A stretch of 64,000 nucleotides of DNA from Diploptera punctata. Lineage: Eukaryota; Arthropoda; Insecta; Blattodea; Blaberidae. Each line of letters opens with the position of its first letter. Positions within the stretch are counted from its first letter, which is position 1. The position numbers and the translations under genes are program-made. Below are positions 6,301 through 59,600 of this stretch, in pieces. The stretch is taken from the NCBI GenBank assembly GCA_030220185.1, contig JASPKZ010007249.1, positions 496,001 to 560,000 of the forward strand. The letters run 5' to 3'. The notes beneath the pieces were generated by a model that saw only the letters and a list, made by a program, of their open reading frames with translations, was not told the DNA's origin and made no database searches.

Positions 6301-9300
6301 GTCAATATACTATACAGACTTTTTTTTTTGTAATCAACTGAGAGTGTGCTATAGATGACTTAAGATTTCCACCAAGAAATACCTTTTTAATTTTAATAAC
6401 CTAAAATGGTGTCCAACTCAGGGTTTGGTCGAGTGATGAGATGAGATAAAGCCCCTATATTTATAAAAGGTATGTGAGTGACAAGGGTGCTGACCAACTA
6501 TGCCTGATGCACTGTCACAGGAGCAGATGAACAAAATGAAGGCAAAATAGGTGAGATGAATATGGAGAAATGGTGGAATGAAATTTGTGGCAGGGGAAAA
6601 TGGGAGAAACCCCAAGAAAATCTGCCCAAGCTCTGTTTCTTCCACCATGAAAAATCCACATGGAGTGAATAGACTCGAACTTGAGACCCTAGCAGTGAGA
6701 GGACATCTAACTGCTTGTGCCATGGAGCTGCGAAGAAATACTTTTACTTTAGAAAACAAATTAAAGAGCAGGAACATAAATAAATATGTCAATATGCATT
6801 ATTTAAATATGTATATCAAAGACAAAAAAGTTCAAATAATTCCTATTTACACTTATATATATAAGTGTTAGTAAAAATTATTTGAACTTATATACACATA
6901 ATTTTTACCAGAATGTCCACTCAAAAGATTTCTGGATGGTATTTATATTGAGGCCAAAAAGGTTAACAAATGTCCTATGTGATTGCACTATGTTGATGAT
7001 CATGATAAATAAATAAATATATATCCAATTAATGGTGTTACTGAAGGTTAAAAGAAGAACTTTATAGGTACCTTGATATCTTTTGGTCAGCTCACATTTA
7101 CATGAAAATATCATGAATTTTCTAAAAATGAAATATTTAAAATTGTTAAACTCTTGAAATCAAACTATGGGTCCCTAAGCACATTAGAGGTATTAAGTTT
7201 TTTTTAGATAAAATAGTGGGTCTGATCCCACCAATTTATATCCAAGTTCTATTCTATAAAATTTAGAACTTAAAACGTTCTTCACTTATTCATATTCAGA
7301 GAAGGATTGTAGGTAATATTCAGCTATCATTAAAATAAAAATTTATTTTATCCTTTGCCATCTTACCTCCTACTTTTGCTATAAGGTGATCTGAGAATAT
7401 GCAGGTCATTGGTATTTCAGGGCTTATTTCACCTTATAAATATTCAACTACCATAATTAAAACATTTTGTCTGTTCATTCTTACCTCTTAGAGTTGTTTT
7501 TTGTTGAACATATGTATCAGAACTTCTTAGCCTTATCGTCAGAACTGTAATCGCTGACAATGGTGCTAAGAAGCTCTGAAACATATATTCGACAAAAACG
7601 ACTCTAAGAGATAAGAATGAACAGACAAAATGTTTTAATTATTAAACAAACCTCTTAATTTAACTTTTATAGGAATTAATCACTATGAGGTTTAATTTAT
7701 GGTGAAATTAAATGTTTCTTACCTCTCCTCATATAAATCTTCTAAGTAGATCGCGATTTCGAGACCATAATGGTCTCATCTTCAGTATTCTTGGCGACTG
7801 ATGTTATGTCGATCAGAAGAAACTCTTCTTCTTCCCTCTGTTCAACAGAGTTTCTTCTGATTGACATAACATCGGTCGCCAAGATTGTACTGAAGATGAG
7901 ACCGTTATGGTCTCGAAATCACGATCTACTTAGAAGATTTATATGAGGAGAGGTAAGAAACATTTAATTTCACCATAAACCTCTTAATGTTACTTCCTAT
8001 TGTATTTTAAAATAAATTCAACTACCAACTCTATATATTTACCTTAAGCATTCTTAGTTCTTTTCGACATTGTTTGATCTGTTTAAAATCTGGAACATTG
8101 ACTTCAAAGAGAGAAGCTGAATCTTGTATGTTCCTCATTTCGGTTTCATGTTCTAATATTTCTAGATTTACATCATCCACTAAGTCATAAGGATACTGGC
8201 AGTCAAATCTACAAATTTGAAATGAAAGCAATTAAATAACTTTTGGAAGAATTAATATCATAATTATCTTTATTATTTTGATGTTATATTTTACTTTAAC
8301 ATGTTCCAGTCCTGAACAAATTTATGTTCTGAAAGGGAAAATTAATGTCTGAACTGGGAATCAAACTTGAACCTCTGATTCTATATGCTGGCATGCAGTC
8401 TATTACACCATTTGAGATACGATACAAATGTTGACATTTCTTTCCACATATACTGTCTTATGTCCAAAGACAGATAGCTAGAACTATTAACAATGCTATC
8501 AGATGACTTCTATCCAAAATATTTTTAACGAGAATTTTCATTACTTTTATCCGTAAAGCTTAATATTTTTATGTAATATTTTCTTTAATGTGTTTCAGTC
8601 CTGGACAAATTAATTTTTTGAAAAGAAAAATTGAAGTCTGAACTGGGAATCGAACCCCAAACCTTTGACTCTGTACATAGATGTGCAGTCCATTACACCA
8701 TTTGAGACACAACTGATGGCATTGTTAATAGCTCTAGCTATTTGCCTTTGGATGTAAGGGAATTGTATACATGGAAAGAAATGTTAACATTTGTATCATA
8801 TCCCGAATGGTATAATGGATTGCTTGCTGACATAGAGAGTCAGAGATCCAGGGTTCAATTCCCAGTTCAGAGGTTAATTTTTATTTTCAAAAAAATCTTT
8901 AATTAAATTGCTTAATTGTACATTTTCCTTTTTTATCATAGTACTTACATCAGAATTTTTACAGAAATAACTCTGACAAGGAAACTGTCAACTATTGCAA
9001 GCCAAAACCTACCTAGAAATTTCTCCCAGAGAATCGTTGTGATGTAACCAAGACCATGTCCAAAAAAATGTCATTTTAAAGCACAAGGTACAAAAATCAA
9101 AGCCAGAACCCAGCAATAGCAGCCCACTGTATGGAGCAGATATAGATCCCTACATTAGTTAAGCACAGAGTGAAGTGAGGCAGGACGCAGCATGGACAGT
9201 GGGTAGTGAGGGTTTTCCAGTCTGCCAATACAGGAGTTGTATTACTTCCCTATAGTTAAATGAGAGATTGGCACTTGATTTTAGTGTCTTGCAGTCAAAA

Positions 9301-11569: not shown

Positions 11570-14500
11570 TGGATTTGCAATCCCTTCAAAGAGTCAACAA
11601 TTTTAGAATCCACATTAAGCATAAATGAAAAAGAGCAGCTTCTCAACATTTCTACTGGTTTTTAGTTACAGAAAAGTTATAAATCTCTGTCAATAATTGG
11701 GTTTTGGTTAAGTTTAAAGGAGTTCACAGTGTTAGCAAATAAAGCCATGACGGCTTTATTACCCTTTTCATCCACATATTTGTGCGAAAAGTCGTTTTCT
11801 TCATATGCCTATTTAAAAAATAAATACAGAAGCAGACTTTGTGCTGAGAGTAATTTGATACTTTATTTAACTTCTATAGTTCCTGACTTCAAAGCTCTGT
11901 GCCATGGAAAGCAGATGCAACCTGCTCACTGAATTCCAAAGAAGAGGTGAGTAATTGCAATGAAAACTTGTATTTATTATTACAACTAACTTTTAAGCTG
12001 TAACTAGAGTTACTTTATGTTTTAAGCGTTAAGGGTTAAGTTAATTCAAGGTTATATTTAAATTAATATTGGGAAGTAAACATTATGAGGTTATATCATT
12101 AATAGTGAGTGGAGAACTTATTTTTAACGACTCACCTCATATAGTTTCAAATTTCTTTGATACCGGAGGTTTCAGACAATATCTTGTCCCTCTTCAGTCA
12201 TGACTGAAGAATTGTCTGAAACTGCCGGTATCAAAGAAATTTGAAATTATATGAGGTGAGTCATTAAAAATAAGTTCTCCACTCACTATTAATTCAAGGT
12301 TATTAAACTTTTTTGCTTGGAATTAAATTTTATGCATATCTACTGTATGCATTTTTAAAAGTCAGTGGTTCACTTAACTCAGATCGTTGTGGAAGGGATT
12401 CGCGAGTCGAAAAAGATTGGGAACCACTGCATAGGATATTATATGAAATTTAAATTTGATTATCAAAATTCAAAATATCATAAAGAGTATTACAAATTAC
12501 AGGTACACTACAGTTTCAAATATCTTTTTCTATAGATGAAACCTGATTATATTGATAAAATATTACACACATTTGTTCCCTAGTTATCATTGTTATTTAC
12601 ATTTACTTAGGTTATTAAACTTAATGTTCTAATGTGATAAAGCAAGACTTTATTTTACTTATATTATTTAAATATTTTGATAATAAAACACAGTGATGAA
12701 CACTATAATTTATTTTACCTTAAGAACTCTACTTTCTTGAACTTATCCCTGAATTGATTCTGTTGAACATCAAAATTAGCAATTCTGTTACGAATGCAGG
12801 CCACTTCTGTGGCTTGGAGAGGAGCAACTTGCTGCTTCACAGTGACAGCTATCTTCTTTGTATTATTCCACTGTTCAGGCAATTCCTGAATAAAAATATT
12901 AGTACATATGCAATAAATGTAAAGAAAGTTTTATGAAAAAATACTATGAACTTCCTTGATCATATTTTTAAATTTAAAAAAAAATCTGGTAATTTGGAAA
13001 ATATCAACATTATTTTTGAAAGAGTACTGTATTATGCTATATATTTTTTTAATTGTTATCAATTCCTCTTAAGTTATCAAAACAATTATTGAAAAAATAT
13101 TTGATTTAAACATGACATAATAATCGTATAAGAACAGCAAAACATACGAAAACTTAAATACTCTTTATACAGGGTGTTTAAATAACATCAATGTGCATTA
13201 TATGATGAAAGACAATGAATTAATAATTTTATAAGAACAGAAACTCAAAAAAACAAAACAAATCAATGAAACAACCAAAATGAAATTTTTAAGGAAAATC
13301 GCTGAGAGAAAATTCGCAGCTCTGTTATTAGAGAAGAATGTGAAATTGAACCTATAAACCTCTGGATAAATGATAGAAGACTAAATTGGAATGATCATAT
13401 AGATAGAATGGAGAACAGTAGACTAGTGAAGAAAGTACATGACTGGACACCTCAGCAGAAAAGGCCTTTAGGAAGACCACAACTACGATGGAAGGACGTC
13501 ACCATACCCCGGGACTGTAGTGAATGAACACGCAACAAGCTGCCCACTTTCATGCTTAGAGGAAGAAGAAGAAGAATAAGAGGTACTGGTAAACCATATC
13601 CAAAAAATGCATGATTTGTGTGCTATGGGGCAACAAAGATTTCTTTCATATGATCAATAGCATTTCGTAATCCTTGATTGAAATCCTATTGCATCGTTTT
13701 GTAATTAATGTATGATATGATGCTCTGTTGGGGTTAGAGAGTTTATTAGCCATTGATTTTTAGTCTGAAACATTAAAATTATTTGGCACCTCATAGTGGC
13801 CAAACCATGCAGTTTTGAAGATTATTTTCTCTTGTAAAATGATTGTCTTTGTTTCTTCAAACATTCCTTAAAAGAAGAAAAATATATATAATAGGAAGCA
13901 GCAATGAGAGAATTTATCTTACTATTCATTTTAACCCAGATAGAACCAATGTTTAATATGTAGCATAGTAACATTTTATATTTCCTATGCAGGACAAAAA
14001 TATAAAATCTTTATCAGAACAAAAAATAACATAAATAATTTTGTTTATTTTTTATTATTTCACTCACCTCATACTTCATAATTCATAGCAGACCCTGGGT
14101 TTCTTCACATAATTTGTGACATTGTCAATGCTGCATCACGTTCACAACTGACATCCAACGGCCTTCTATCCTGCAGACTGACCTCCGCGCCATCTGGTGG
14201 CCGACCGAAGAATTTCCAAATCAGTCCTCTTTCTTTATAACCGGGTATTTCAAAATTCATAGTTGTATTTTCATTCTACATAACTTAATAAAGTTGGCTA
14301 TCAAGTCATAGGAAAACAAGAATAACGTAAACAACTGGAACAAGATGGCGGCTTCAAACATACAACATTTCAACGAAAACATTTTCGAAAACTAAGATAG
14401 AAATTAAAAGATATTTGAAATTAAAAGAACTTAAAAAATGCAAGAATGAAAATACAACTATGAATTTTGAAATACCCGGTTATAAAGAAAGAGGACTGAT

Positions 14501-17500
14501 TTGGAAATTCTTCGGTCGGCCACCAGATGGCGCGGAGGTCAGTCTGCAGGATAGAAGGCCGTTGGACGTCAGTTGTGAACGTGACGCAGCATTGACAATG
14601 TCACAAATTATGTGAAGAAACCCAGGGTCTGCTATGAATTATGAAGTATGAGGTGAGTGAAATAATAAAAAATAAACAATATTAAAGAACCTCATAGTAT
14701 TATTTCCTATCTACATAACTTAATAAATAATTTTGTTAAAAATAATGATAATAATATCAAAATGGTATTTCATATTGTAATATTATCCAACATTCTAATC
14801 ATGTGAAGCATGGACTTCCTTGGTCCACTAGAGAAATCCACGACTATAATAAATAAAAGTTTTAAATATTGTATCTGAAATACTTTTGGTATTTTCAAAA
14901 TAATCAAACAAAATAATTAATTAATTTTAACTCTTTCCAATAGAACATTTATTTCTTCAGAGTATTTTTACATTGTTATGAGAGTAAACATCATAAAAAT
15001 AAAACTGTGAGAATAAATTTAAAATATTCTTCAGTCTTAGTTAATGCGAAGGTAATAAATAAAATATTTTTTTAAGTAACTTTGAGTTATGAAAAAATAT
15101 AACTGCCATTTACATTAAGGAAAGAACAGTAATGCATATATTAATAAGAAAAAGAAGCGAATCAAAGGATGGGATAATAGAAACACCATAAAAACAAAAA
15201 GTGATTTATTTTAAAAGTTTAGTACAAACTATACATAAATGATTGATAAGAAAATTCTGTCATGCATATATACAGTGAGATCAGTATAGTATTGTACAGC
15301 AGACGCGGGGTTTGTGCTATGCGATGATGAAGGCTTACATGTGCAGACATGGGACTTGAAATATGTGCTGACTCAGCAGTTTACGAGTACATCCTACGCA
15401 ATCACGGTCAGTGTGCTTCGAGTAGATAAGGTGCTCGCTCGCTTTTCATTGTGAACTGAATGATGTGAGCATAGTGTAAATTGTATAATGGCTAATAATT
15501 TTTCTACTAAACAACGTGTATTTATTTATGATCAATATTTGTTAACTTAGTCTGCCAGACAAGTATGAAGACTTTTTGAAACACGATTCCTGGGTGTAGA
15601 AATTCCAACATGTTCAACAGTCCATAATCTGTACAACAAATTTTATAAAGATGTGATAAAAATGTATGGACAACAAAGGTGGACAGTTCCAGCACCTGCT
15701 TCAATAAAGTTGGTAAGTACGACAATTTATAAAAGAGTTACGAAAATGTGTGTTGTTGTATAACCGCGATCCTATGCTGTCTGTTCCCTGCCGCAAGTGT
15801 GTCAGCAGTGTACAGTGAAATCCCCGAGTCTGCTGTCCAATGCTATATTGATTGCACTGTATAAGAAGCTATATCTTTTATAATCATTTTATTTAAAGGA
15901 ATTCAAAATACCCTATGTTGTTAATGCTATAATTCTGCTTCTACAGTGCATGTTTTATCAGAATCTATTCTCATATTAGGAGAATGAAATTGGTCATATA
16001 ATTTAATACTTGCTTTTTAATGTAGAAAAATTCCATACTTAATTATTCTTAGGTACCATACATAAGTTTCTTGCACTTCTATAAACAGAACTTATTATAA
16101 AAATTATTATTTTCATAAAAAATATATAATATTGTATATTTGAAGAGAAAAATTTTCGCCCAGACCGAGACTCGAACCTGGGACCTTTGGCTTTCTAGGC
16201 CAATGCTCTACCATCTGAGCTACCGGGGCAAGTTCCAATCTAGACACAAAATTTTCTCTTATGTACGTTGTAATACCGTACCTACAATTAGGCAAAAAAG
16301 CTAATAAAGTATAACATAATATTTAATTTTAGGAAGTTATATTTTGAGGTTATTTTAATTATATTATTTTTTGGTCTGGACATCTTACCTCAATATTAAT
16401 GTTGATTTGTTCTTGGACATGTTTCAAAACAATTCTCTGTTTTATCTTCAGCTTTCCCAGACTAGTCTGGGAAAGCTGAAGATAAAACAGAGAATTGTTT
16501 TGAAACATGTCCAAGAACAAATCAACATTAATATTGAGGTAAGATGTCCAGACCAAAAAATAATATAAGTATAACATAATAAATAAATACCACCTGTAAA
16601 CTTTCAGTCTGAATACGATTATTTTGTATGCTCTTTTAGTAACTTTTTTTTCCATTTTCCAACACAATTTTATATGTAAATCCAAATAATAATTTCTTAT
16701 AAGAGAATTCTCTGTTTTAAATTCACACTTGTACTTGATAAATATTTCCTGAAAATGTTTAAGCAAACTGATTCTGTAGATCATGAGAAAACATGCACTC
16801 TATAAAGCAGTATTTTAATATCAGTAACATAGGGCATGCAGAATTCCCTTAAAAAGCATATATTAACATCAATTTTAATAGGCCTATATGGTGTGCCACA
16901 AGAATATCAAAATAATATAGAAACAAGCATATGATGAGTGATGCCACATTCAGTATGCATGACCACAAGGTAACCTCACTTCATTGCTCTGGTAACATTT
17001 GAAGTTGCAAGTTAAAAAAATAATTCTAGCATAACCAGAGAAGGCATTGGTTACTAAGATCAGTTCACTGCAATATAAATTAATTTGCTGATCTTAGATG
17101 CAAAGCAGTTAACTTAAAAGCAAAGGTTGACATAAAAATAATATTCATTTTTTGTACATATAATAAAATTAGCATTCATAAGCCAAAGCCCTTTCTAAGA
17201 ATAGACTAGAGAAATACTCTCACAATAGAATTGAATAAGAAGTTTATAAAATTTTAAAAGCAGAATTTTATGCTATATAATGATTTTATCTGATATAATG
17301 AATCCCAAGGGTAATCACTATGAACTGCTCATTTAACAAGGTAATATATTTTATAAATTTATTGTGGGAAATAACATTATGAAGCTTTCTGTTAATGAGT
17401 CTTGAAAATCTCACCGCATAAACTCTATGTTCTTCAAAGCATGGGACCACGGTTTCAGATACAGTCGTCCCTATCTCAGGTCGGAAATATGGCTGAAGAT

Positions 17501-19893
17501 AGAGACAACTGTCTCTGAAACTGCAGTCCTGTGCTTTGAAGAACACAGGAGATTATAAGGTGAGATTTTCACGACTCATTAATATTAATTAAGGTAATAT
17601 ATTTAACGTAAAAATATAAAAATAAAATTATGCATAGCTTTTATTAATTGAGTCTCATGAGTGTTGAATACAATGTATGGCACGTAACAGAACAACAAGA
17701 AGTTTGATGTTTTATTAATAATTTAACACTTCTCACTGAAGGATAAATTATATTTGAAGAGAAAAACTATACACTCAGACTGGGTTTGAATTAATAATTT
17801 AACACTTCTCACTGAAGGATAAATTACATTTGAAGAGAAAAACTATACACTCAGACTGGGGTTTGAAACCAGGACCTTTGGCTTTCTAGGTCAATGCTCT
17901 ACAACTGAGCTACCTGAGAAACTTCAATCTAAACACAAATTTCTCTGGGTTCAAACCCCAGTCTGAGCATATAATTTGTCTCTTCAAATATAATTTATCC
18001 TTCAGTGAGAAGAGTTAGATTAATGATAAAACATCAAAAGAAGCCCTGCTGGCTTTATAAAATAGTGTTCAAATTCCCAATAAATGTCTTCTTAAAACAA
18101 GAAGCCGCCATTTGCGTGATCGAGCAAGGCGAATTAACAGTGTACAAGAGAAAAATTTGCATTTAGATTGGAGTTTCTCAGGTAGGTCAGTGGTACAACA
18201 TTGGCCTAAAAAGCCAAAGGTCCTGGGTTTAAACCCTAGTCTGAGCATATAATTTTTCTCTTCAAATATAACAACAAGATTGTTGATCTAATATCAGTAC
18301 AATTCATCGGAGAACATTTTGTTTAAACAACTCTCCTCATACGATTCATGCTTTCATGATACCGTGGTTTCAAACACAGTCGTGTTCATCCTCAGCCATA
18401 ACTCCGACTGATGAAATTCTTCGTAGTTATGGCTGAGGATGAACACGACTGTGTTTGAAACCGCAGTATCATGGAAGCATGAATCCTATGAGGTGAGTTG
18501 TTTAAACAAAATGTTCTCCGATGAATTTTAATTATTATACCTCATAATGTTTACTTCCCAACATTAATTTAATATAATATCAGTACAGTTTATGCAAACC
18601 AGACATTTAAGATTTAAATTAAACCTCATAGTGATTTTTCCTATAAAAGTTCAAACCAAACATTACTTGAATGAGATATTCTACATAAAAGTTTTCATAA
18701 ATCCAATAAAAACCATTTACTCATATTGCTTCAATAATTTTTTTAAATATTATAACTAACTCACTGACACCACTGAACTCAGAGATTTAAGGCTGTGCAA
18801 ACATAAGTTCTCCATCATCCCTACCCCGAGCATTTTCCTGTACAATTCAATTCTCTCAAATCATAGTTAATGTTATTTGTCCACCTCATTCTTGGCCTAT
18901 CTACTGGGTGTTTTCCCCTTTGTTTCCCTTTTTCATTTTTCATTTTGCCACATGGCCTGCTCATTAGAATCTATGAGAATAAAATATTTTCTAATCCATT
19001 TATATCAAAATTGAGACAACTATAATGTTTCATAAAGGTCAGAAATTATGAGAAATAATGTCACAAGTGATTTCCAAATCATTGATAAATTCACAAATCA
19101 CTTCGTGACTCGTGAATTTATCCAAAGGATTTGGAAATCAAGAGTGGCACTTGTTAGGACTATTTAATGAATATAATAAAGCTGTTTAATAAAAAATCAT
19201 TATTTAAATATAGTTACATGTATTTTTAAATATTTATAGATTCAATGTAAATGGTGATGTTTAAAAACAAATCGGACATTTGAGGTTATGTATATTCACT
19301 GCAACTTGTTCATATTATTTATTGCCAAATAGGATTGCAATATTGTAAGGATCACCCTAGTGGAGAAATAATGAAACATATCGAACTGTATATTATAATC
19401 AACATTATAGATTAATCATTTATTTTTTTTAGTAAACAACTCGGTAAAAATCACAGAATCAGTTCATTATTTGCTATATTCAATGTATTTGTTGGAGAAA
19501 AATAATGCTCTGAGCTGTTCAGAATATTAAAAAGTAGGAACTTTCTTTATCACAAAAGTACGAGCTGATAAAGAGAAATTGATAAAGAGCTAGGTGAAAC
19601 ATGACTGTCATTGGTTATAAAACAAAATTCATTGAAACGTGATTGGTCACTGACTACCATTTGGGGCATGAGTTAAATAGTCAAGATAAATTACACCAGA
19701 AAATATAGTTTATAGATGGCTAAGCCCTAAAATTGATTCTTACTGGAATAAATTATGTTCATCACTTGTTTCCAATTGTTTAGTATCGTCAACCCTTACT
19801 GAAATGTTTATAAAAAATAGACAATTAATAATTTATATGCTTATTAGCTTATAATTAAAACATTATGTAAAAAATCTAAAATGTAAAGAATAG

Positions 19894-43500: not shown

Positions 43501-44655
43501 CAATTTTAATATTTCTGAAATGTTCTTTTGTCCGAATTTCCAAATTCCTTTTTGTTTTTCCTATATAAACTTTATTGCAATCTTCACAATTTATTTGATA
43601 AATTCCAGATTTCTTACTGTCTGGAACATTGACTTTTTTATTGGTACTTAGAAGATTACCCAGACTAAATTTATTTATTGGTGCCAAAGAAATGTTGTAT
43701 TTGTCAAAAAATTTTTGAAATTTCCTGTGCATTTCAGGATGGTAAGTAATTTTCTTGTATTTTTTTCTTTTCTTTGCAATTTTGTAGAGTAGTATATTCA
43801 TTAAGTCTTTTTTTGTGTTTGAATTTCTTCAACTTATTTATAATTAATTCTTCAACAAAACCATTTAATCTAGCAGTGTTTAAGATATGTTTAAACTCTT
43901 TGTTGAAATTTTCTTCGTTTAATGGTACATTTGTCAATCTGTAAATTAAACTATTGAATATTGCATGCTTATGAGCAATGTGATTGAAGCCTGATGATTT
44001 AATGTAATTATCTGTATAAGTTCCTTTTCTAGATATATCAAATTCAATTTTCAGTGTTTGATCATTCCTAATTATACATAAATCCAAAAAAGGAATTTTG
44101 TTTTATTTTTTTAATTCAACGGTAAACTTTACTGATTCATCCTGAAGGTTCAATAATTTAAGAGCATCTTCAATATCTTTAGAATTTATTATTGCGAAAA
44201 TATCATCCACATATCTGAACCAAGTCTTAAACATCCATGGGTATGCTTTAGTGATTTGACACTCCAAGTAACTCATGAACAAATCAGCTAAAAATGGTGA
44301 GAGCGGATTGCCCATTGACAAACCTGAAACCTGTTGGTAAAATTTTCCATTATAGGTAAAATGGTCTTTATAGGAAGCCAGATATAATAAGAACAGTTAA
44401 GTCCCGTAGAATGCGATGGGCAGGACATGTTGCGCGTATGGGGAATGAAAGATGTGCATGGAAACTTCTTGTAGGAAAGCCAGAAGGAAAACGCCCAGTT
44501 GGTAGGCCAAGAATGAGGTGGGAGAACAGCATTAACTATGATTTGAGGGAAGTAGATTATACAGGAAATGATTGGAAAGCATTAGCTCAGGATAGGGATG
44601 TATGGAGAGCTTATGTCCGCGCGGCCATGAACCTACGGGTTCGATAGTGCCAGTG

Positions 44656-44689
<34 letters not shown>

Positions 44690-47600
44690 GTAAAATAAGA
44701 ATTACTGACACATAGCTTAGTAAGAGTTATATATTCCTCTATTATTTCATTTTTAATATTTAGAGAACTTAACCATTTCCTCAAAAAACTTAGCATTTTT
44801 TCAACTGGTATACTTGGAAACAATGAAATTACATCAAATGAAACCAATCTGTCATCATGTCTTAGACTCATATTTTTCAATTTGTCAACCAATTCCAAAG
44901 AGTTCTGAATACTTTTTGTTTCAAATTTGGGAAGCTCATTAAATTTTTGTACCAGCCATTTAGATAAATAATAGCATGGTGAACCAATGTTGTTGACTAT
45001 AGGTCTCATCTTATTACCAATTTTATGAATCTTTGGTAGACCGTACATTCTAGGATTCGATGGATTGGACACTTTTAATTTAAATTTTTTTTGTTTTGTG
45101 AAAGTATATTTTATTTGTTTCAAAGTATTGTCAAATGATTTTACAGCTTTAGGTAAAGGATCCTTTTTCAATTCCAAAGTCGGAGTTATGGCTGATGATG
45201 AACATGACTATGTTTGAAATCGCGATATCATGGAAGCATGAATCTTATGAGGTGAGTTGTTTAAACAATATGTTCTCCGATGAATTTTAATGATTATACC
45301 TCATAATGTTTACTTCCCAACATTAATTAAATATATCCATATACCTATGTTGGATTTGTGAGTAACAATAATGCTGATCAGCTAGCAAAAAAGGGTGCCA
45401 TTATGGAAAGGAAACCAATAGGACAACTAGAAATGCACAAACAGGTTAATAATAAATCATGTACCATGTAGAATCTCAACAAAGACCAATGAAATAAGAA
45501 CTGTTGGAAGGCAATGCCTACCAAAACATCTAATACAGACCTGACATCTTCAATATGCCAAGGAAAACTGCAGTGGCTCTGATTAGACTGAAAACCTGGG
45601 CATGACAGCCTTGCTGAACATCAATTTAAGATAAACTGCCTTACTACACATACTTGCAACTTATTTGATGAAGACAGTATGATGATCAGAAGCCACTTAC
45701 AGGAATGCAGGAGACTAACAAACAGTAGTTTAGCAACACTATTGGGAAGCCAGAGGGAAAGTGATGTAGATCAAATTATTTCCAGTTATATTGGGCAACA
45801 AAAACAAATCATTCAGTGGTTTTGAAAGATAGTATTCACAGTAAAATTTGTTTCTAGATAAAATGCCATATATTTCTTCTTCCTTCCAAGTATTAGGCCA
45901 AGGCCTGTTACGATCCTATAGAAAATTTTCCCCCCAGCATTTCATAGGACGGCCCAGAGATCTTTGTCCTCTTGGTATATAATTATAAACAGCTTTGGGG
46001 ATCCGATTTGAACTCATTCTTTCAAGATGGTGTTTCCAATTTAGTTGGTACTGTTTAATATATTCCAAAATTGGCATAGTCTTCAATTCTTTTAAGATAT
46101 TGGTCTTCCTTTTCTGATCCCATATGGTGTAACCCGCTGTTCTGCGCATGAATCTCATTTCACAAGCCATTATTCTGCTTTCATGTTGTCTTTTTAGTGT
46201 CCATGCTTCACTACCATAGGTCAACACTGGTCTAGCCAAAGTGTTATATAAACGTATATAACCTATATTTGGTGTAGTATCGTAACATTTCAGGTCAAGA
46301 TATCTTCCTTTTGAATAACAGTTGTGTAATCACTCTAGATGTACCATCAAGTTATTAAAAAAATACTTCAGTTTTACTTTCTACGATAATACTATAGGTT
46401 TCCACCAATCAAAATAGTAAGTCATTCGTCATTCTTCAGTACATGTTTCCAGCCATAGCTGATGACACAATTCCATTGCATAGTTACACTACTTGAAGAG
46501 TTGATTGTGATTTTTCCTATGTAAACTATACACAAGCTCTGCAATAGCCCATACCTTAGGTGTAATGGAAGTCAAAATAACTAAAATAACTATTATTTAA
46601 TTTTAGGAAGTGATATTTTGAGGTTATTTTAATTAAATTATTTTCAGTCTGATCATCTTATTTCAATATTAATGTTCTTGGTCATGTTTTAAAACAAATC
46701 CAAGAACAAATCAACAGTAATATTGAGGTAAGATGATCAGACTGAAAATAATTTAATTAAAATAACTATATTGCACGAGATTCTGGATTTTTCCCAGATA
46801 GGGGTAGCCACGTCTAGCCTTATGTATGTATCTGGAGTGGAATGTCTTGGGAAGGGGAAGCAGCTGGCGCTCTACCAGGCTGCTGTTTGATTGGCTTGGT
46901 GGTGGGGCATAGGCAGGGGCAGTGATACTGCTTGAGAGATGTTTAGGCACCGACACTTCTGTTATGTGCTTCTCAAATATTCTAGAATGGTTTCAGTGAC
47001 CATTTAACATAAGACTTGACGCAGCAGCTAGTTAGTTGTAAATATGATATAGAACTCAGCAAGTGAAGAGTAGTGATAATTATGACTAAGAATGCTGTGA
47101 GAGTGTGTTGTAGTAAAGTTTAATTACAATTTTGTTTATTTTTTATTATTTCACTCACCTCATACTTCATAATTCATAGCAGACCCTGGGTTTCTTCACA
47201 TAATTTGTGACATTGTCAATGCTGCGTCATGTTCACAACAATTAATTACAATACTTATATTACAATAGTGATGGTGATTAATTAAGAGATGACTATTGAA
47301 GTGCTAGTGAGAAATGAAGTATCTCAATGAACGATAGATATTAGTGAACTATAAAGTGTAAAGGACTTATAGAGTAAGAATTGTAAAGAATAGTTATTTA
47401 AACTTAAATAAATGAATATTATAAGCTTTAAGTGAAACTAGTGGACATTATTTAAGGGTTATAGTTAGTATAAGGTCATATTTGAAGAGAAAATTTTTTG
47501 CCCAGACCGAGACTCAAACCTGGGACCTTTGGCTTTCTAGGCCAATGCTCTACCATCTGAGCAATTGGGGCGAGTTTGGATCTACATGAAAATTTTTCTC

Positions 47601-50600
47601 TTATATATGTTGTAATTCCTAGCACCAAATGCTATGAAGCCTTTGCTTCTATTAAGTTGTGTATATAGGTCAGTCTGCAGGATAGAAGGCCGTGGACGTC
47701 AGTTGTGAATGTGACACAGCATTGAGAATGTCACAAAAGTTGTGATGAAACCTAGATCTGCAAGAAGTTATGAAGTATGAGGTGAGTGAAATAATAAAAA
47801 ATAAACAATACTTTGCTTCTATCTTTGCAAATGGCGGCTTAATCATCTATACCCCTAAAAGTAACAATATCATCTAATACAACACAGCTATCTGGACAAA
47901 TACAGACCCAATTGATCTAATTACAAAGTCAGATCTAGTTTAAGCAATTATTATTAAATTGTTTATACAACATGAATTATTTACAAATAAAAATTGTAAC
48001 ATAATAATATACATACCAGTTGAATTCCAATTGAGACTAGTTCGTCCTTGTTCAACCAATGCATCAATTTCCCGAATCTGTTCTTCTACAAGAGCAAATT
48101 CAACTGACCGACTTGTTCGTCTTAATTTATTGTACCTAGTTAAATAAAAATTAAGTGTAACAAATTTATATGTTAATAATTTAACACTAAATTGATAGGA
48201 AGTAACACTAGGTGTTTACTAAAAAAAAGAATAGGTTACTTACACATCGTCTCATATTTTGATCTCTCATCTGGGTGTTTCAAAGGACATATTCATCATT
48301 TTCAGCTGAAAATGTCATATGAAACATGTTCCAGATGAGTGAGCAAAAATGATTCAATTTATTTGATATTAAAAATTATCAACACTTGAAATTCATGAAA
48401 CATTGTTTTTGAAAGGCCTCCATATTGGAATAACTTGAACAAGTTTAATAATTTAGTTGAGGGCAACTGACTTACCAGGTACCAATTTAATATTTAATAT
48501 CTTAACAATTATCTCAACATTCCTCACTAACAGAAATAAAATCTAATTATTCTGATATGGAGGTGCACAAGTTTGAACATGGTTGGGGGGAGTAATAAAA
48601 GAAACATACTAAACAAAATAAACTCAATAGTACAAAAGGCTTAGATGACCCTTGGCTTACCAGGTGGTTGCTGGCCACACAACTACATGTGTTAATCACA
48701 GAGGTGAATGATAATCAAAGGTCAACATATCGGATCTCTCAGCCATTATGGCTGGTTTTTTCAACATGGAGTCACTACTTATTGTAGCTACTGCAAGTCC
48801 CAAATTGGCTGAAATTACATGAAAAAATGTCTTCCCCATGGGAACTTGAACCAGCACCAAGCCCCATAGCTCTGTACCAAGACACCATGCCATAAACTGC
48901 TCGGCTATGGTGTGGGGCTAAGAGAGACATTCTATTATAGGACAGATTTGTCACCTTATATTGGGAAGTTAGAAGGAAAATTATATCATTATCAACCCAT
49001 TTGGTTAAAAAAAATCATTCTATTGTAGACTAATACTGATCCTTAGGTAGTTAGGGATTAGTGCATCAACATGGAAAGAAGAAAATTTATTAATTGAGTT
49101 CAACTTCTGGCCCATAAAATAATTTTTCTCTTTATGTTTTAAAAAAATAGTTAAGAGACTCAAAAAACAGAAAATTAAATTTTATACAATAATACTAATG
49201 ATTAAAACTAAAAAAAAAACAAATACAACAACAACAGCAACAACAATAATAATTATTATTATTATTTCTTCCACATACACACAAATATATATATATGGTT
49301 GGTTGGTATCTAATGTCGAGCACTTGATAATGAGATCATTCACTCTCTTGCACTCCAATATTTAGCAGAAAGGCAGGTCTCTTCTACAAAAGCTGGATAA
49401 TGGAGGAGATGGTTTCTTTCCATACCTTATATATGAAATAATGAGTCGCTTTTTATCTTACCTCATACTCTATGTTTTTTTAAACATGGGAACTGCAGTT
49501 TTCAAGAGGAGTCCCTCTTATCTTCACTTGACATTATGACTACCAGATTTGAATGAAAATCTGGTAGTCATAATGTCGGCTGAAGATAGGAGGTATTCCT
49601 CTTGAAAACTGCAGTTCCCATGCTTGAAAAAACATAGAGTATGAGGTAAGATAAGATGTGACTCATTCTTTCATTGAACCTCGGTTTCACCAATACTTAC
49701 CATTGTATTGTCTGATTGAGATTTGAAGTGTATTTTCTAAAAGTCTCACTTCGCTCATAAATTTGAAGTGCTTCTTCAGGTATATCTTTGTGTTCCATTA
49801 GATTAAGATAATGTACTTCACGAAGAATTGCAGTTAACTGAAAAATTAGACAGGTATATTATTGAAAATCTTATCTCAATAGTTTTAAAAAAACATATTT
49901 CATATCATTGACTTTATTATTACGTAAATAAATAAAATTATATTTTACCATAAATAATTCATTAAGTTTTCCTTAACTCCAATGAATTTCAATTTCTTAA
50001 GGGTCTTTCAGATAACTTACCCACTTCAGAAATTTGTTAATTTTTAATCAAATTGCTGAAGACAAATAAGTTATTCAAAAGTCCTTCAAGGAATTAAAAT
50101 GCATTGGAGTTGAATAAGACTGAATGAATTATTTACAGAATAATATAATTTTATTTTTGAAGTTTATCGTTGAACATTTTATGACAACTCGCCTCATAAA
50201 CTTCATGTTTTCATGATACTGCATAGTTTCAAACGTAATCACGTCCATTGTCAGCCATAATAGATGATGAACATAATTACATTTGAAACTGTGCAGTATC
50301 GTGAAAAACATTAAGTTTATGAGGTGAGTTGTCAAAAAATGTTCTCCGATGAATTTCAATGATTACACCTCATAATTATATTTGAAGAGAAAAATTTTTG
50401 CCTAGACCGAGACTCGAACCCGGGACCTTTGGCTTTCCGGGCCAAATGCTCTACCAAGGCGCAATGGTAGAGCATTTGGCCCGGAAAGCCAAAGGTCCCG
50501 GGTTCGAGTCTCGGTCTAGCTGAAAATTTTTCTCTTCAAATATAATTTATCCTTCAGTGAGAAGTGTTAAATTAATAATAAAAATGTCAATACCGGTACC

Positions 50601-53600
50601 TCATAATGTTTACTTCCCAACATTAATTTAATATAATTTTTTTATTTATTTGAATCTTATCTGAATACAAACTCTGCAGAGTTACTGTTTTTTGAAACAT
50701 TCTATTCACAGGTAAAAGCCCTTACAATGAAAATAATTGAGGCAGTTAGAAGCAAAGAGGTATAAGTGCAAGTTTTGTAGTACTGTATTGAGAAAAAACA
50801 GGTTTAAAGTTGAAGTTGTATAAGAAAATCATACGTAACTGAATTTTTTTTTGTCCAATGTCACCAGGTTATCATTTATGACATTTCTGGCTTTCTCGCC
50901 TGGCATTGGTGGAATTGTAATCCATTTCTTAGCTTGGGGCACCTGGAAGGCGGAATTACATTACCCTGATGATATGATGGGTGATAAATGATAATCAAAT
51001 GCCAGGAGAGTCCATAACCTAAATTCCAGACCCTGGGTGACCACAGGAATAATTCCCTTTAACCTTTTGAACGCCATGCCCGGCGTGCGCTGGTGAAAGT
51101 GTGTGTACAGCTGTACGCCACGCCCGGCAGGCTCTGGTTTTCAATCTTATTATTTTAAATATTTTTTTCCTGAAGTTTTTACTTTAATAAACTAAAATTA
51201 TTTTTCGTTCTGTGTTTGTACATCCTTTCTTAGCAATACTTTGCACATCCCTTACAGAATAACGGTACAGGCTAGTTGTAAATGGATTTTCTAAAGGAGG
51301 GTGTATATTCATGTTACAAGGCCTTTTTTTTTTGCTATGAAATGTTGCAATTTCAGGATTTTCTCTTTATTTATTTTATTTTTAGTTGAAAAGATACCTG
51401 GCCAAGGGGTAGGTGGTGCTGTGAAACACAGTGATTCATATCTCAAAGTTGACAAAAATACAATACGCGAGTTTATTGTGTCAGTTTTTCAGAAGACGAG
51501 AGTGACAGTAACAGGTCATCAAATGGTTACTCGTTTGACGAATGTGATACTAGTCCTGTTTCTAAGAGAATATTATTACAATCTAAGCCAATAAATAGTA
51601 AAGCAAGTAATGTAGACCTAAATGAACTGGGTGTGAGTGACAGTGGTGGGCGTGTCGCGCCAGACGAAACACGTGGCATAAAACAGCTGTTTGACTGGAA
51701 TTGATTCGAACCCAGGACCATAAAAAATGTTCAACAATTTTAATATTATAAGTGTTTAGTGATAATGCCATCAAAATTATTCAATAGGAAAAATGTTTTA
51801 GTGATAGTGATAACAAATTCCAATAAAGACGCCGTGCTGAATTCGAACCTGGGATCTTTACGAGTGGAAGCAACGCCGTCTAACCATCAAATAAATGTAT
51901 AATAGTGAGTTTAAATTCAATTTAGCATGGCATGTAGATAGTTAATTTTACTTTATATACGTTAATATTATATAGTATGGCGTAGTACTTTAAATTTAAA
52001 AAAACCTGGCACCCACAGTCCAGCTGGCAAAAGGGAAACTCGGCGGTCAAAAGGTTAAGGAACCTCATGAACTGTAGTCAGAAACGCTGACCATTGGCCC
52101 ATGAGACATAACATTCTTTATCTACTCCTAATGCATGAACTTATATCCCTTTGTCACTAAATAAAAGTATGTTCAAGAATGTAATTATGCACCAAATTCA
52201 TTTTTTGTAAAAAAAATCACACCCCTTTGGTTTCAACTACCTCAATTGTAATGTATAATTTATTTTCTATGAGCAGTTATTTTCATCATCATGATGAACA
52301 GTTTTTAGATTCAGGCAGTGTTGAGCCTATTCCTATATCTCAAGATGATGTTTAGTCTTTCTCTCTCTTGATGTCATTTTTATATGTGTTTTTTAGTTTT
52401 CTTGTTAAACACTGTAATTGGTGTATGCCGATCAGTGACTTTAGTAAGAATTCATTGTCCAATCTCATATACTGCTACCTAGTGGTAGGGCAGTCATCAT
52501 GATAAGTAAAAGCATTGATGGATTGCATGCAAGTTTAAATAAATATAAAAATAAATTAAAGTATATAATAGATGTAATTATTTTTAATGGCATAAAGTTT
52601 AATAAAACATAATTTAAGTTATGTAGATAGGAAATAACACTATGAGGTTTTTTAATATTTTTTTATTTTTTCTTTTACTCACCTCATACTTCATAACTCC
52701 TCGCAGACCTGGGTTTCGTCACATCATTTGTGACATTCTTAATGCTGTGTCATGTTCACAACTGAAGGCCATTGGACGACACAGCATTGAGAATGTCACA
52801 AATGATGTGACGAAACCCAGGTCTGCGAGGAGTTATGAAGTATGAGGTGAGTGAAAGAAAAATAAACAACATAATTTGTTTTAGACATAAAAGTAATGAA
52901 AGAAAGACTTTGTTCACTTACTTGTGGATGAAAATTCAAGGACAGTTCCCTGTTGATAACTTTGCGTGTCAAAAGTGAAAGTTTTAAATTTTTTTCACAC
53001 TGTTCCGGTACTGAGACAATCCAATCAGCAAATATCTTCTTCTCAAATTTATCCAATAAATTCATTATTCTATCATATTTTACCAAGACCAATTGTGCTT
53101 CATCACATTTTACAATTCTGTATCATAAATAAAAAGTTGCAGGTAAGTATTTTCTTAATAATTATGACTTAGGCTAATTTTCTCACTTCATATTTGTATG
53201 TAGTTATATGAGGCAAGAAAAAACAGCCTAACTTATAATTATTAAAATAAATCTCAAAGTATCGGTATTACTTCCTTTAAATATTAAAGTATATTCTTAT
53301 TTGCTAAACAAATGTAATATTATATGAGTTAAGCACTCTTAATGATTGATATCAAAATATAATGTAATATAAAATATAAAGTATAATGTTAATGGAACAT
53401 ATAAACAAACATTAAGAGTCGGAGTTATGGCTGAGGATGAACATGAGTGTGTTTGAAACCATGGTATCATGGAAGCATGAATCCTATGAGGTGAGTTGTT
53501 TAAACAAAATGTTCACCGATGAATTTAAAAAAGTAAAAATTCTAAAGAAATATATGTCACTTTCATGCTAATCCCAGCAAATGAGAAGATTATATATACA

Positions 53601-56600
53601 GAGTGGGTCCAAAATTGTGAAAAATGAGCTAACTAGAAAGGAAGATTTTAGCTTTCCCACAAAAAAAGGAAAGGATATATTGTATTGTCAATCATGATAA
53701 GTATAATTATTTCATAATATATTTTGTGGTAATTCACAATTTTGGAATTCTTGGTGTGTAAAGACATTTAACTCAAATTGAGATATTCTAAGATCTTTGG
53801 TTTGATGCTAGGCTTATACAAAATAACAAATTCATCCTGGGTAATTTTCTCTTAACTAATAATAAAGTTAACACCCCAGACAACAAAAAATCTGGAATTT
53901 ATCAAATTAATTGCAAAGATTACAATAAAGTATATATAGGAAAAACAAAAAGGAACTTAGAAACTCGTAAAAAATAACACTTTAGAAACATAAAAAATGG
54001 AGAAATTGAAAAATCAGCTATAGCACCACAGTTTATTAGAGAATCATAGAATTGAAAAAGAAGCAAAACTTTTGAAACATCTATCCAAACCTTTGGAATT
54101 AACAGTTTGGGAAAATATATATATTCAAAAAAAACCATACTAGAACCATGAACTTCGAGATTCCAGACAAACCAAGCTTGATTACAAAGTTCTTCAAAAA
54201 TACGCCAGATGGCAGTTTAGAAAATTACTCTTTCAAAAGTACACCAGATGGCAGTTTGAATAATTACCAGCAAAAGAAAAAATTGACATTCGTGAAAATA
54301 GCTGACGATGGAGAAGATGGTTCTCCGATACTGTGGTGCTGTGTTTAAAAAAACATTGATGTATGAGGTAAGAAGAATTCACGATTCATTTGATTCTTAT
54401 ACAAAATACTTTGTGTATGTACATATTTAAAAAAAAATTACTGATTTTAATTTTTAACAAACTATCAAATGATGATTAATAGTCAAATGGATTTTGATAA
54501 TAAAATCAATCTCAGTCTTGATGACAGGGGAAAAAATAACTAACTCATTGGCACTATCAAACCTATAGGTTCATGACGACGTGGACATAAGCTCTCCATA
54601 CATCCCTATTATGAGTTAATGTTTTCCAATCATCCCTTTACAATCTACTTCTCTCAAATCATGGTTAATGTTATTCTCCCAACTCATGCTTAACCTGCCT
54701 ATTGGGCATTTTCCTTCTGGTTTTCCTAAAAGGAGTTTCCAATTACAATAAAAAATTCCAGTTATGTTGGTTGACCATAAATTTGAACTTGAAATCTACT
54801 GAATACCAATTTCAAATGGTATCATCTGAACTAAGTATTCCTAATTATTTCAAATATAATTAATACTGGTGATATTTTTCTTATTTAATGTCAGTGTGAC
54901 CACAGGGAGTTTAATGTAGAAACACACTTAGCTTTTGTGGACTTCAAAAAAGCCTTCGACAAAATCAATAGGAATAAATTGTTGGGAAATTTAGCTGACA
55001 ATAATCTACCACAAGAGCATAGTTTAAATGTATACATTATCTATAAAACAAATTTGATTTCAGTTCAAATCAATAACACACAAATAGAATGGACCGAAAT
55101 TAATAGGGGCATAAGACAAGGATGTGGCCTCTCGCCCTTGCTCTTTATTATATACATGGATAGAATACTTCAAGATTGGTGATAGATGAGACACGGTTCT
55201 ATTCAAATTAATAGAAACCTAAAAATAGACTCCCTGCTTTTTGCAGATGACATTTTGCAGATGATTTGGTATTAATAGCTCCAACAGAAACAGATTTACA
55301 GTATTCTATACACAATTTTAATATAACTGCAAAGAGGTACAATATGGAAATCAATACAAAGAAAACTAAAGTGATGGCCTTTTGTGGGAAATACCCTATA
55401 CCTGGCAAAATTGTTTTGGTCGATGAAATTTTAGAATGAGTAAATTAATTTAATTATTTGGGTTATAATTTAACACTTCAAGATGAAGCTGATGTATCAA
55501 AGAAAATCACAAATTTTATAAAAACAACTGGGATAATTAACAGTATAATGAAACCATCTTTAGTGCACAAGAACACAAGATTACAGCTTTATAAGGTTCT
55601 CGCAAGACCAGTACTAAGATATGGTAGATATGGTAGTGAAGCATGGACAATACGAAGAAGAGATGAAAGCCGAATAACAGCAAATGAGATGTGATTTATA
55701 CGCTGTACAGCAGGCTATACAAAGTGGGACCATAAAAGAAATGAGGAAATTATGGAAGAGCTGGAGGTAGAATCCACTGGAAAGCCCATCTGCAACGAAT
55801 GCCATCTCAAAAAATTCCAAAAGCCATGCTTCGTTACTGCCCCCAAGGCAAAAGTTATCTGGGATGTCCAAAAATGTGCTGGATGGAAAATTCCTCTTTG
55901 AGACCTAATACTTGCATGGATGATGTTGACGATGATTTTTCTTAAAAATTATAAAATTTATAATACAGAATATCCTAATCAGCTATCAAAAAATTATAAA
56001 ATTTATAATACAAAATATCCTAATCAGCTATCAAATATTATAAGAACATATAAAATCTTAGACTCTGTTAGTCATTGTCTTCATTAACATATTCTCTGTA
56101 AGCAATACAAGAATACATTAGAACATAAAGTGGTTTGCATAAATTGAAAACCGACCACATTAATGCCATCTATTCTAGCAGTGTGGAATCCAAAGCATGT
56201 TAAATGCAGTGGGCAGCATTAGAAAACACATACATTTTCTCTGATGTCTGTGGCTGATCGGGGTGGAGGGAATGCTAAAATGTGCCTATAGGGTAGCTGA
56301 AAGGTTATAAAATTTGTTATAGTTCCAGATATTTTCATTATCCTTGTAAAGTTTTATTTTAAGGGGAGGGGGCATTGAAGTAGTTTTTATTTATATTTCC
56401 TTTTATTTGCTGTGATCTTCTGGGATCAGCTCTGAAGAAGGGAAAAATTAGTAAGCACTACTTGATGATGATGGATGACAATGATGGATGACGATGAAGA
56501 TGATGATGGTGATGATGATGGCGGTGATGATAATGATAATAATAATAATGATAATAATAATAATAATGATAATAATAATAATATTATTATTAATAATAAT

Positions 56601-56643
56601 ATTATTAACAATATAATTGACGATGACGACGACAACAATAATA

Positions 56644-56697
<54 letters not shown>

Positions 56698-59600
56698 CTT
56701 CATTTTAGCAGGCAGAGTTAAGGCCATAACGCCTTCTCTTCCACTCAACCAGCGAATAGTAGAATTATACAAAAATTACATACATATTACAATTGAGGTT
56801 TTATTAATAAAAATCAAATTAATCGTGAATTCTTCTTACCTCATACTTCTATGTTTTTTTTAAACACAGCACTGCAGTATCGGAGAACAATCTTCCCCAT
56901 CGTCAGCTGTTTTCACGACTGTCAATTTTTCTTTTGCCGGTAATTATCCAAACTTCAAAAGTACATCAGATGGCAGTTTGGACAATTACCAGCAAAAGAA
57001 AAAATTGACAGTCGTGAAAACAGCTGATGATGGGGAAGATTGTTCTCTGATACTGCGGTGCTGTGTTTAAAAAAACATAAAGTATGAGGTAAGAAGAATT
57101 CATGATTTATTTGATTCTTATAAAATTGGCAGCCTGCAAAGCCACATGCAGATTTCTGCATTTTCAGTTGTTAATACAATGCATTTATAAATATGTACTG
57201 ACAACAAGCAAGAACTCAACCAATTAAACACATTGATATGTTGAGCAATGGCAAGTTGCATAGATCATGTGTGGTCCATGAGAGGTTTGGTAATATACAG
57301 AACATAAATAATAAAAAAAAATCAGTAATCTCAAAGCTCGACAGAAAAACACATTTATATCATTCTCTTTGGTCCAAAAATTCTCCTAAGCACTTTTTTC
57401 TCAAATACTTGCAATCAGCTAACATAACTAGAGAGAATAATTTGAACTTGAGCCAGAATTTAAACCCACTGGAACTGCACATGCTGTGCTTTATTAATGA
57501 GCTATTTAGGTACACCTCTAAATATGGTCAATCGTAGAAGACCAGTACATAACACTGGAGATTAAGGGTTTAAATTCTGCCTCAGGTGCAAATTCTTCTC
57601 TACAGTTATGTGAACTATGAAGAGCTTATATACAAACAGCTATGAACCTTAATAGCATCAATAAGTTAGTTATATTAAGTGAAACGGTATATGGCATATA
57701 GGTATAAGTCAGTTTTTACATAATGAGTAAAGTACACTGTTGTATAGAAGAAATTGCATACTGTATTTTAGGTACCTACTGGTACGTAGTGTAGTGGTTA
57801 AGGCACTGCGCTACAAGCTGGAAGGTCGAGGGTTCCAGTCCCGGTGGGGTCAGGATTTTTAAACTGACCCAAACCTTCCGGTGGCACTATGGCCCTGGAG
57901 TTGACTCAGCTTCTAATGGAAATGAGTACCAGATGCTTGTTCTGGGGGTAAAGGCAGCTGTCATGCAGGGCTGACATCAAGTGCCGATTGTCCAGAAAAA
58001 GGGGAGCCTTAACCTCCTACTACCTGAAGGGCCTCCTGAGGCCTGTAGTGGGATTACTCAAACTGGTACATCAACATTTAGTATCATCACTTAGAATAAT
58101 AAATATCTCATAAAACTTATTATGGGAAATAAAATTATGAGGCTTTCAAGATAATAATTAAAATGAATCGTAATTATCGCACCTCATACACTCTGTGTTC
58201 TTCAAAACATAGGACCGCTTTGGAATTGACAGTTTGGGAAAAGGTGTACATTCAGAAGAACAAATTTAGATCAATGAAGATAATAACAATTTTTTTTTAA
58301 TTATTAGATCAATGAATTTCGAAATTCATTGAAGATGCCCAAGATCATATGCTTTGGAGGTATGGCATGGGAAGATGGCAGCAGTTGTAGAAATCTGAAG
58401 ATAGATAGATAGAAATTCGAAATTCCCGGCAAGCAAGATTTAATCTCAAAGTTCATCAAATCAACACTAGATGGCAGTTTAGAAGAAGATAATATAGAAA
58501 AAATTCAACAGTTGCAAAGATGGCTGAAGATAGGAAAAGCTATTCCAGAAACTGCGGTTCTGTACTTTGAAGAATATGGAGTGTGTATAAGGTGAGATAA
58601 TTACGATTCATTCTATTTATTAATAAATATCTCATGATTATTAACATTAAGCTAACTTGATTTTTTGTATATTGACTAATAAAACCCTGTTTTTCTCAAA
58701 AATTCACAAAAAACAGAATATCTGGCAATAAATAGCAATGAAAGAGAAAATTTAATATTGGAAAAAGGAATCCAAATAAATCAAGTGAAACAAAGTAAAT
58801 ATTTGGGAATAATTATGGATAACATTGAAGGTATAGGCAAGGAGAACATAAAACATAGAATTGAATTGAGAGCAAAATAATATCATCATTAAATTCCATA
58901 TGGTGGGATAAGCATATTTGGAAAGACACAAAAAAATATTACTTATTTTAGGAATTCTCACTATGAGGTATATTCATTAAAGTAGAATTTTTTTTTATCA
59001 CTCACCTCATATTGTGTCAAATAAGAAGAACAATATGAGGTAAGTGATAAAAAATTCTACTTTAACAAAAAATACATTGGTAAAACATTGGTGGAATCTG
59101 TTGTAATGTATGGAAGAGAGGTATGGACAACCAATAAGTACTACAAGAATAGACTAATAGCTCTAGAAATTGATTATTTATGCAGAAGTGCCAGAAAGTC
59201 AAAATTAGAACATGTCACAAATAAGGAAATTATAAACATAATCGAAGCAGAAAATGCATAATTGAAATAATTGAGGAGAAGGAATTAAAGTGGTTAGGAC
59301 ATGTTTTAAGATGGAAGATGAGCGATGGCCAAAGCAACTATATCAATGGCATCCGACCAGAAAGAAGAAGAGAGGGAGACCAAAGTAACATGAAGACAGT
59401 AATGCAAGCACGAGGGCTAAGCATTGAAGATGCCCAAGATCGTAGGCTTTGGAGGTTTGACATGGGAAGAAGGCAGCAGCTGTAAAAACCCGAAGATAGA
59501 TAGATATGAAGAAAAATTACTTACACCACTATGCCAAGGGGGTATCCCTTCAACTACAGATAACAGAGGGCTAATCAGGAGGCATTAATTTCTATATAAC

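Follow-up and report, generated by a model that had tools for sequence, protein, structure and literature searches.

Penelope-like element copies inverted head to head in a cockroach genome: one tail, mostly on the shorter arm, and hammerhead motifs on either strand

Introduction

Retroelement copies made of two arms joined head to head, some of them with a hammerhead ribozyme motif on each strand, raise the question of whether the inverted layout is kept for its effect on the ribozymes or is a record of how the copies were made. Such copies are frequent in one 64-kb window of the cockroach Diploptera punctata (contig JASPKZ010007249.1, positions 496,001 to 560,000), the whole stretch of DNA analysed here and the one to which all counts refer. 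A preliminary description recognized hammerhead motifs, Penelope-like elements (PLEs) and inverted arms in this DNA, and was right in all three, as judged by the excess of motifs, the PLE domains and a comparison of the window with itself, in which many near-palindromes appear. Inverted pseudo-long terminal repeats (pLTRs) and hammerheads within pLTRs are both already published PLE traits, and the available parts of two papers give inverted arms as a layout of PLE insertions (PMC3846280; PMC8969392). PLE integration and the frequent inversion of copies were left open in 2013, in the text available of that study (PMC3846280), and in vitro work from 2024 describes the later integration steps as yet to be validated (PMC11167929). 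The explanation preferred here, at a probability of about 0.5, is that the inverted copies arise when a separate cDNA is made at each of the two cut DNA ends and the pair is joined head to head, and that the doubling of the ribozyme is a by-product.

Results and Discussion

The carriers of the hammerhead motifs are PLEs with pieces of reverse transcriptase (RT) and GIY-YIG endonuclease (EN), target-site duplications (TSDs) and tails. The RT domain, which is telomerase-like in PLEs, is represented by a match to RVT_1 (44103-44396, minus strand, E 1.8e-8), and GIY-YIG (PF01541) was found in three open reading frames (ORFs), at 24845-25417 (minus), 36742-37320 (plus) and 43460-43828 (minus); the EN encoded at 36742-37320 matches a protein of Diploptera punctata (Blattodea) with 97% identity over 91%. 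Copies with coding sequence are 5'-truncated, and no full-length RT was seen in the window. Counted by eye, the insertions come from roughly ten related EN-bearing PLE families and are mostly reduced to the 3' pLTR. Flanks were examined for 28 inverted pairs chosen by eye from a self-comparison that holds more; 6828-6889 and 28685-29195 were dropped, leaving 26 elements, all with the inverted arms of pLTRs, for the counts of tails and TSDs. Exact flanking repeats of at least 12 bp occur in 10 of these 26 (12-19 bp long), against 5 of 650 swapped flank pairs, and tails of the kind known from some PLE copies (30-40 bp) lie above the 95% control at one end or more of 20 elements.

A more telling clue is the asymmetry of the copies. 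The tail is a stretch of 30-45 nt outside one arm of many elements, with the common word AACCTCATARTG...TTCC, and was called above a cut-off set at the 95% level of 2,000 random window positions, a level that chance alone might let about 2 of 52 ends exceed. One tail is present in 19 of the 26 elements, none in six and two in a single one, 7669-8000. That copy is read as nested within the tail of its neighbour 7453-7642, because its own TSD AAACCTCTTAAT forms part of that tail, and its second tail is read as belonging to the neighbour. If tails were placed at random, the probability of no double among 20 tails would be 0.0019, and that of at most one double among 21 would be 0.013. Since the tail word includes the reverse complement of ATGAGGT, which lies downstream of the hammerhead, the sequence suggests a possible stem-loop in the RNA at that place. 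An optional tail on one of the inverted pLTRs has already been published, in the available text of PMC3846280.

The tailed arm is also the shorter one in eight of nine firm cases (P 0.02; elements starting at 724, 17392, 18298, 31658, 35049, 43121, 58152 and 63484), and in 12 of 13 when the weaker cases 3499, 50157, 52659 and 56804 are added (P 0.0017). Several points have to be set against this rule. Arm lengths were called by hand, from the spacer as compared with other copies or from the continuity of the motif; 14036-14684 is a clear exception, with its tail on the longer arm; and 13 of the 26 elements stand outside the count, as ties (12098, 16353, 46623, 22429, 58977, 40526), for want of a clear tail (27031, 34090, 47132, 49433), as a composite (24602) or as uncertain (7453, 7669). 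The added cases are weak for different reasons: 3499 hangs on a single 10-nt word, 50157 and 56804 have tails under the score threshold, and 52659 depends on a match of 13 nt spanning a deletion and is contrary on plain BLAST extents, as is 7669. With 7453 and 7669 placed among the contrary cases the count becomes 12 of 15 (P 0.018), and in the worst case, with 52659 moved to the contrary side as well, 11 of 15 remain (P 0.06). Whether short arms stop where the ribozyme cleaves was considered by eye, and the idea was dropped: 43121, 58152 and 18298 misfit, 3499 fits, and 724 and 31658 come within about 7 nt.

A single tail, placed on the shorter arm, speaks for two cDNAs, each started at one of the cut DNA ends. 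The pLTR bears a small hammerhead of type I, in which CTGANGA is followed by one extra base; its stem III is very short, and the ribozyme therefore probably acts as a dimer, as cited for its relatives. The element's enzyme would cut both target strands and each 3' end would prime a cDNA near the ribozyme, one beginning at an upstream site and having no tail, the other about 40 nt downstream and including it, after which the two would be joined head to head. On one shared RNA, the cDNA started upstream would stay ahead and become the longer, tail-less arm. With both cDNAs extending past the motif, symmetric priming would leave one ribozyme on each strand as a by-product, and folding suggests that transcripts of two-ribozyme copies should form a hairpin that blocks cleavage. 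In vitro, a purified PLE protein cleaves both strands of the target and extends each of them, with no strand difference, and its cDNA synthesis begins at two neighbouring internal positions between which the tail lies (PMC11167929). Twin priming for PLEs was not found stated in print, in a search that did not include the hammerhead papers of 2014 and 2017 or the PLE paper of 2021. A more specific combination can be put forward only tentatively and is on the whole doubtful: one RNA and an enzyme dimer would prime both ends, the leading RT starting upstream and giving the longer arm without a tail, the trailing RT starting downstream and giving the shorter arm with it, and a recently active family would rely on a hammerhead in which C3-G8 has become U3-A8. 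An insertion made by such a dimer would have a tail on its short arm alone, and the ribozyme end would be present twice, each copy facing outward. If the rule of one tail on the short arm holds genome-wide, genomic copies would be a record of two-ended priming, which argues against snap-back copying.

Snap-back copying, in which a single cDNA (or an antisense RNA) folds back and is copied to give head-to-head arms, is the alternative that survives best, and it too would make the doubled ribozyme a by-product; it is nevertheless unlikely. Such self-priming has been suggested in print for bdelloid PLEs from palindromes at inverted junctions, and in the available text it is preferred for Adineta vaga without being settled (PMC3846280). 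Spacers are short or absent in many copies here, which fits a fold-back. On the other hand, a copied-back cDNA cannot include a tail absent from its template, and the tail is on the shorter arm in all but one of the firm cases; the difficulty may be avoided if the template is an antisense RNA running through both start sites. Spacers of zero (16353-16574) and 1.9 kb (43121-45295) are, moreover, neither of them natural for a hairpin primer.

Known systems resemble the two-cDNA scheme or the copies themselves in part. Penelope of Adineta vaga, as far as PMC3846280 is available, shares 5' truncation, head-to-head inverted pLTRs, palindromic junctions, short TSDs, a nested insertion and a 31-bp tail optional on one inverted pLTR; it differs in that hammerheads have no occurrence in the available main text, and the window differs from it in being dense with pLTR-only copies. 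PAc, the Poseidon element of Anolis carolinensis, has RT and GIY-YIG EN, a hammerhead in the pLTR, a tail from two adjacent internal RT start sites and cutting and extension of both strands, but its copies are described as tandem rather than inverted, and its hammerhead, overlapping the start of the ORF, cleaves only in the presence of the protein (PMC11167929). The minimal type I hammerheads of PLEs are alike in their very short stem III, pLTR location and likely dimer action, and are credited to Cervera and de la Pena 2014 and Lunse et al. 2017 in the accessible parts of PMC7761336, PMC6155905 and PMC10085705.

The motifs themselves were searched for on both strands with a strict grammar: CTGANGA, zero to two extra bases, stem II, GAA, a stem III with A15.1-U16.1, position 17 not G and a stem I of at least three pairs. 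Thirteen sites were found, against a mean of 0.275 in dinucleotide shuffles (11 in total in 40 shuffles). The six best sites named in the preliminary description were each refound within 1 nt by this independent script, at 22471-22515 and 18354-18401 on the minus strand and at 23574-23620, 18427-18474, 45186-45233 and 53425-53472 on the plus strand. Although zero to two were allowed, all 13 sites have exactly one extra base after CTGANGA, which is T in 11, G in 12158 and C in 5666. Two sites are weaker: 774-813 (minus) lies within a 31.5-bit model match, and 5666-5717 (minus), at 12 bits and E 1.8 in the later model search, may be a chance occurrence.

An alignment of 12 arms, made of 11 of the 13 script sites and a left arm overlooked by the script (7742-7798), pairs in 96.8% of 155 cells of the hammerhead structure, and sliding the partner by one to three columns cuts pairing to 20-44%. 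Changes on both sides occur in 10 of 13 pairs, a number reached by 12 of 500 shuffles. With filters off, a covariance model built from these arms found 32 sites at E<0.01, of which 20 had not been used for training. On reading the alignment, 19 of the 32 retain both the core letters and stem II, so that the claim of at least 15 sites held; with the pairing of the stems in the aligned arms, these 19 give the type I features (CUGANGA ... GAA, A15.1-U16.1, H17 and three stems). The hits at 12189 and 40570 retain the core letters, with stem II gone. A protein scan yielded no relative. The negative control consisted of 19 viral contig stretches, chosen beforehand for containing a core word that ends in GAAACTGCAGT and used solely for this purpose. 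Its peak is 22.4 bits, and with default filters in both searches 27 window hits exceed it, 15 of which are not training arms.

Stem III is a self-complementary 8-mer in several copies (ATCGCGAT, ACTGCAGT, ACCATGGT) and a loopless 6-mer in others (ACATGT, AGCGCT, ACCGGT). Being short, self-complementary and in some cases without a loop, it suits ribozymes acting as dimers in tandem copies. For type I hammerheads whose stem III is weak, in PLEs or elsewhere, dimer action is described or suggested in the parts available of PMC7761336 and PMC6155905, and a tertiary contact between loop I and loop II is reported absent from PLE hammerheads in those of PMC7761336.

Other results weaken the case for hammerheads. 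Rfam returned none at its gathering score or at E<=10, in the whole window or in a 1.2-kb piece, and many of the Rfam matches listed in that scan are miRNA-precursor models fitting the palindrome hairpins; the preliminary description had named a covariance-model search as its own test, and this outcome counts against it. Eleven of the 12 alignment rows were selected by pairing, which makes the alignment partly circular. The number of further pair types does not stand out from shuffles, 99 of 500 of which reach the same level. When six single arms are folded to minimum energy (-11.8 to -18.7 kcal/mol), stem II forms in all six and the three-way junction in none. Because the model built from the window itself works, the silence of Rfam is read as short-stem variants lying below the reach of its models.

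The same silence and the same folds are what would be expected if the hammerhead-like words were coding conservation of the ORF C-terminus, or chance, an explanation that is also in line with the overlap of the ORF end with the 5' half of the motif in some copies and of the C-terminus with the motif in several families. It is considered improbable. Stem II is altered on both sides across families, the sites far exceed those in shuffles, and in the 45 kb and 35 kb families GAAA, stem III and position 17 lie, on our reading, at or beyond the stop codon.

One family departs from the standard core in a regular way. In 35049, 14036, 47132, 52659 and 24845, C3 is changed to T and G8 to A in all nine arms found (35089-35188, 37250-37349, 14076-14175, 14545-14644, 24816-24915, 47167-47239, 47676-47773, 52691-52771 and 52778-52838), with the core word TTGANAA in eight and TTAAGAA in one. 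GAAAC and C17 are retained, as is stem II bar end or single mismatches. In PAc a C3G/G8C double swap partly restores activity (PMC11167929); a literature search on C3-G8 in the hammerhead catalytic core found no paper. Both changes appear synonymous in the overlapping ORF, and drift is therefore possible. A second family, with six hits (54287, 56855, 57009, 63534, 63691 and 38875), has GAT in place of GAA together with a G17, a combination expected to be inactive under hammerhead rules. At 54287-54353, 56855-57075, 63534-63757 and 38875-38941 the stems are paired, and the GAT/G17 motif there is a hammerhead fossil.

The preliminary description further placed one ribozyme in each arm of every element and proposed that competition between a hairpin and self-cleavage could let the elements control processing, which would be a reason for the inverted arms to be kept. 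The first claim is true, with intact cores, for five of the 26 elements only (7669-8000, 16353-16574, 18298-18530, 22429-23629 and 43121-45295); in each of the remaining 21, one arm or both are mutated, end short of the motif or belong to an altered-core family. As to the second, both structures are possible on paper, the five copies do have intact cores on both strands, and folding agrees that a long hairpin can hide the ribozyme. Whole-element folds, however, exceed the two parts folded apart by 51-150 kcal/mol (seven of seven elements folded, both strands), that of 18298-18530 reaching -176.6 kcal/mol. In two-armed elements the minus-strand motifs lie in left arms and the plus-strand motifs in right arms, so that, whichever strand is transcribed, the antisense arm is made before the ribozyme; with so strongly favoured a hairpin this leaves little competition. 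Together with the many truncated or decayed copies and the 21 elements short of two intact cores, this makes control by such competition unsupported and very improbable. What an inverted copy provides is one ribozyme and its antisense; as there is no second sense ribozyme, we think that the inverted copies are silenced by-products. In the PLE tested in vitro, hammerhead mutants had no effect on insertion and the ribozyme cleaved only with protein added (PMC11167929).

No more probable is a set of foldback DNA transposons (miniature inverted-repeat transposable elements) with captured PLE ends, which would account for the small size, terminal inverted repeats and TSDs but not for unequal arms, a tail usually at one end only, exact TSDs varying from 12 to 19 bp or longer copies in which 5'-truncated RT/EN reads outward to the same kind of ends.

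Other Copies and Features of the Window

One coding copy is the 5'-truncated PLE at 43121-45295 (minus strand), whose arms (43121-43236 and 45178-45295) are 96.6% identical and whose RT and EN lie on the minus strand, with the RVT_1 match given above and GIY-YIG at E 1.8e-6. Script, model and alignment agree on intact cores in its long arm without a tail (43183-43228, minus) and in its short tailed arm (45186-45233, plus); the tail (ACCTCATAATGTTTACTTCCC..., 45296-45335, plus, end approximate) was set by tail comparison and score, and no TSD of at least 12 bp was found. A foreign repeat within its PLE ORF (approximately 44380-44690) resembles, by eye, the C-terminal piece of another retrotransposon.

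Among the palindromic copies, 18298-18530 has a 13-bp TSD (TAATATCAGTACA, at 18289 and 18575), a tail on the right (18531-18574) and intact cores in the left and right arms at the script positions given above. In 22429-23629, with two intact cores (22471-22515, minus; 23574-23620, plus), the right arm is interrupted by an unrelated insertion (about 22782-23574) and the tail is on the right; an exact TSD was not found. Loss of an intron from one of its arms was considered by eye and rejected, the missing 28-30 nt having no AG end and lying between 5-bp repeats. Copy 7669-8000, with limits set after reading the sequence, has an outer TSD (ATTCAACTACCA) besides its own; its left-arm hammerhead (7734-7800 with flanks, minus) was overlooked by the strict script and comes from model and alignment, and its right-arm hammerhead (7887-7929, plus) was found by all three methods; both cores are intact. 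This copy within 7453-8000, and another at 63430-63483, apparently lie within tails of other PLE copies, and tails may be preferred targets.

Three palindromic copies have the tail on the left: 17392-17582 (TSD AAGGTAATATATTT), with an intact core at 17488-17533 (plus) and a decayed left-arm counterpart; 12098-12293 (TSD TTAATTCAAGGTTAT), with an intact hammerhead at 12158-12200 (minus) and a right arm that has lost half of stem II; and the zero-spacer copy 16353-16574 (TSD AAGTATAACATAATA), with both cores intact (16403-16464, minus; 16463-16524, plus), stem III ACATGT and a poor stem I. The inverted copy 724-888 has a 19-bp TSD, a tail at about 889-924 and a hammerhead solely in the long left arm (774-813, minus). 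The composite copy 24602-25706 contains the GIY-YIG ORF 24845-25417 (minus) and an intact core at 24673-24717 (minus), whose partner at 25582-25646 (plus) has two core changes. The script site at 53425-53472 (plus) lies in an arm that has no adjacent inverted partner, and no tail was seen there.

Two more of these copies belong to the family with both C3 and G8 changed. The 2.3-kb head-to-head PLE at 35049-37389 has RT/EN segments in both arms, TSD ACAATATAACATT and a tail on the right; its arm segments are up to 100% identical, which would mean a very recent insertion or an assembly artefact, yet it has a 13-bp TSD and one tail. Copy 14036-14684 (TSD ATAAATAATTTTGTT) is the one with its tail on the right, on the longer arm, and its 165-nt spacer (14278-14442) seems to derive from the 5' region of the element, with a junction to the EN end, possibly from an internally deleted source copy.

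The host DNA is taken as introns of an axonemal dynein heavy-chain gene. Two minus-strand ORFs resemble axonemal dynein heavy chains 9 and 17 and are taken as exons, 22053-22415 (DNAH17 E 2.9e-23, DNAH9 E 3e-21) and 33662-34072 (DNAH9 E 9.5e-14, DNAH17 E 2.7e-7); because their order is that expected of a minus-strand gene, the window is taken as mostly intron. The minus-strand motifs are then in the sense of the host pre-mRNA, and masking by the inverted arm may make such intronic insertions tolerable. Intronic copies with a pre-mRNA-sense ribozyme masked by its own inverted arm would provide a natural test of the cost of a hammerhead to its host gene. The window also holds tRNA-derived repeats resembling short interspersed nuclear elements, some as inverted pairs (16135-18270, 20800-21200, 47478-47571 and 50374-50547), and Rfam tRNA matches at 16157, 17848, 18176, 21108, 47499 and 50399.

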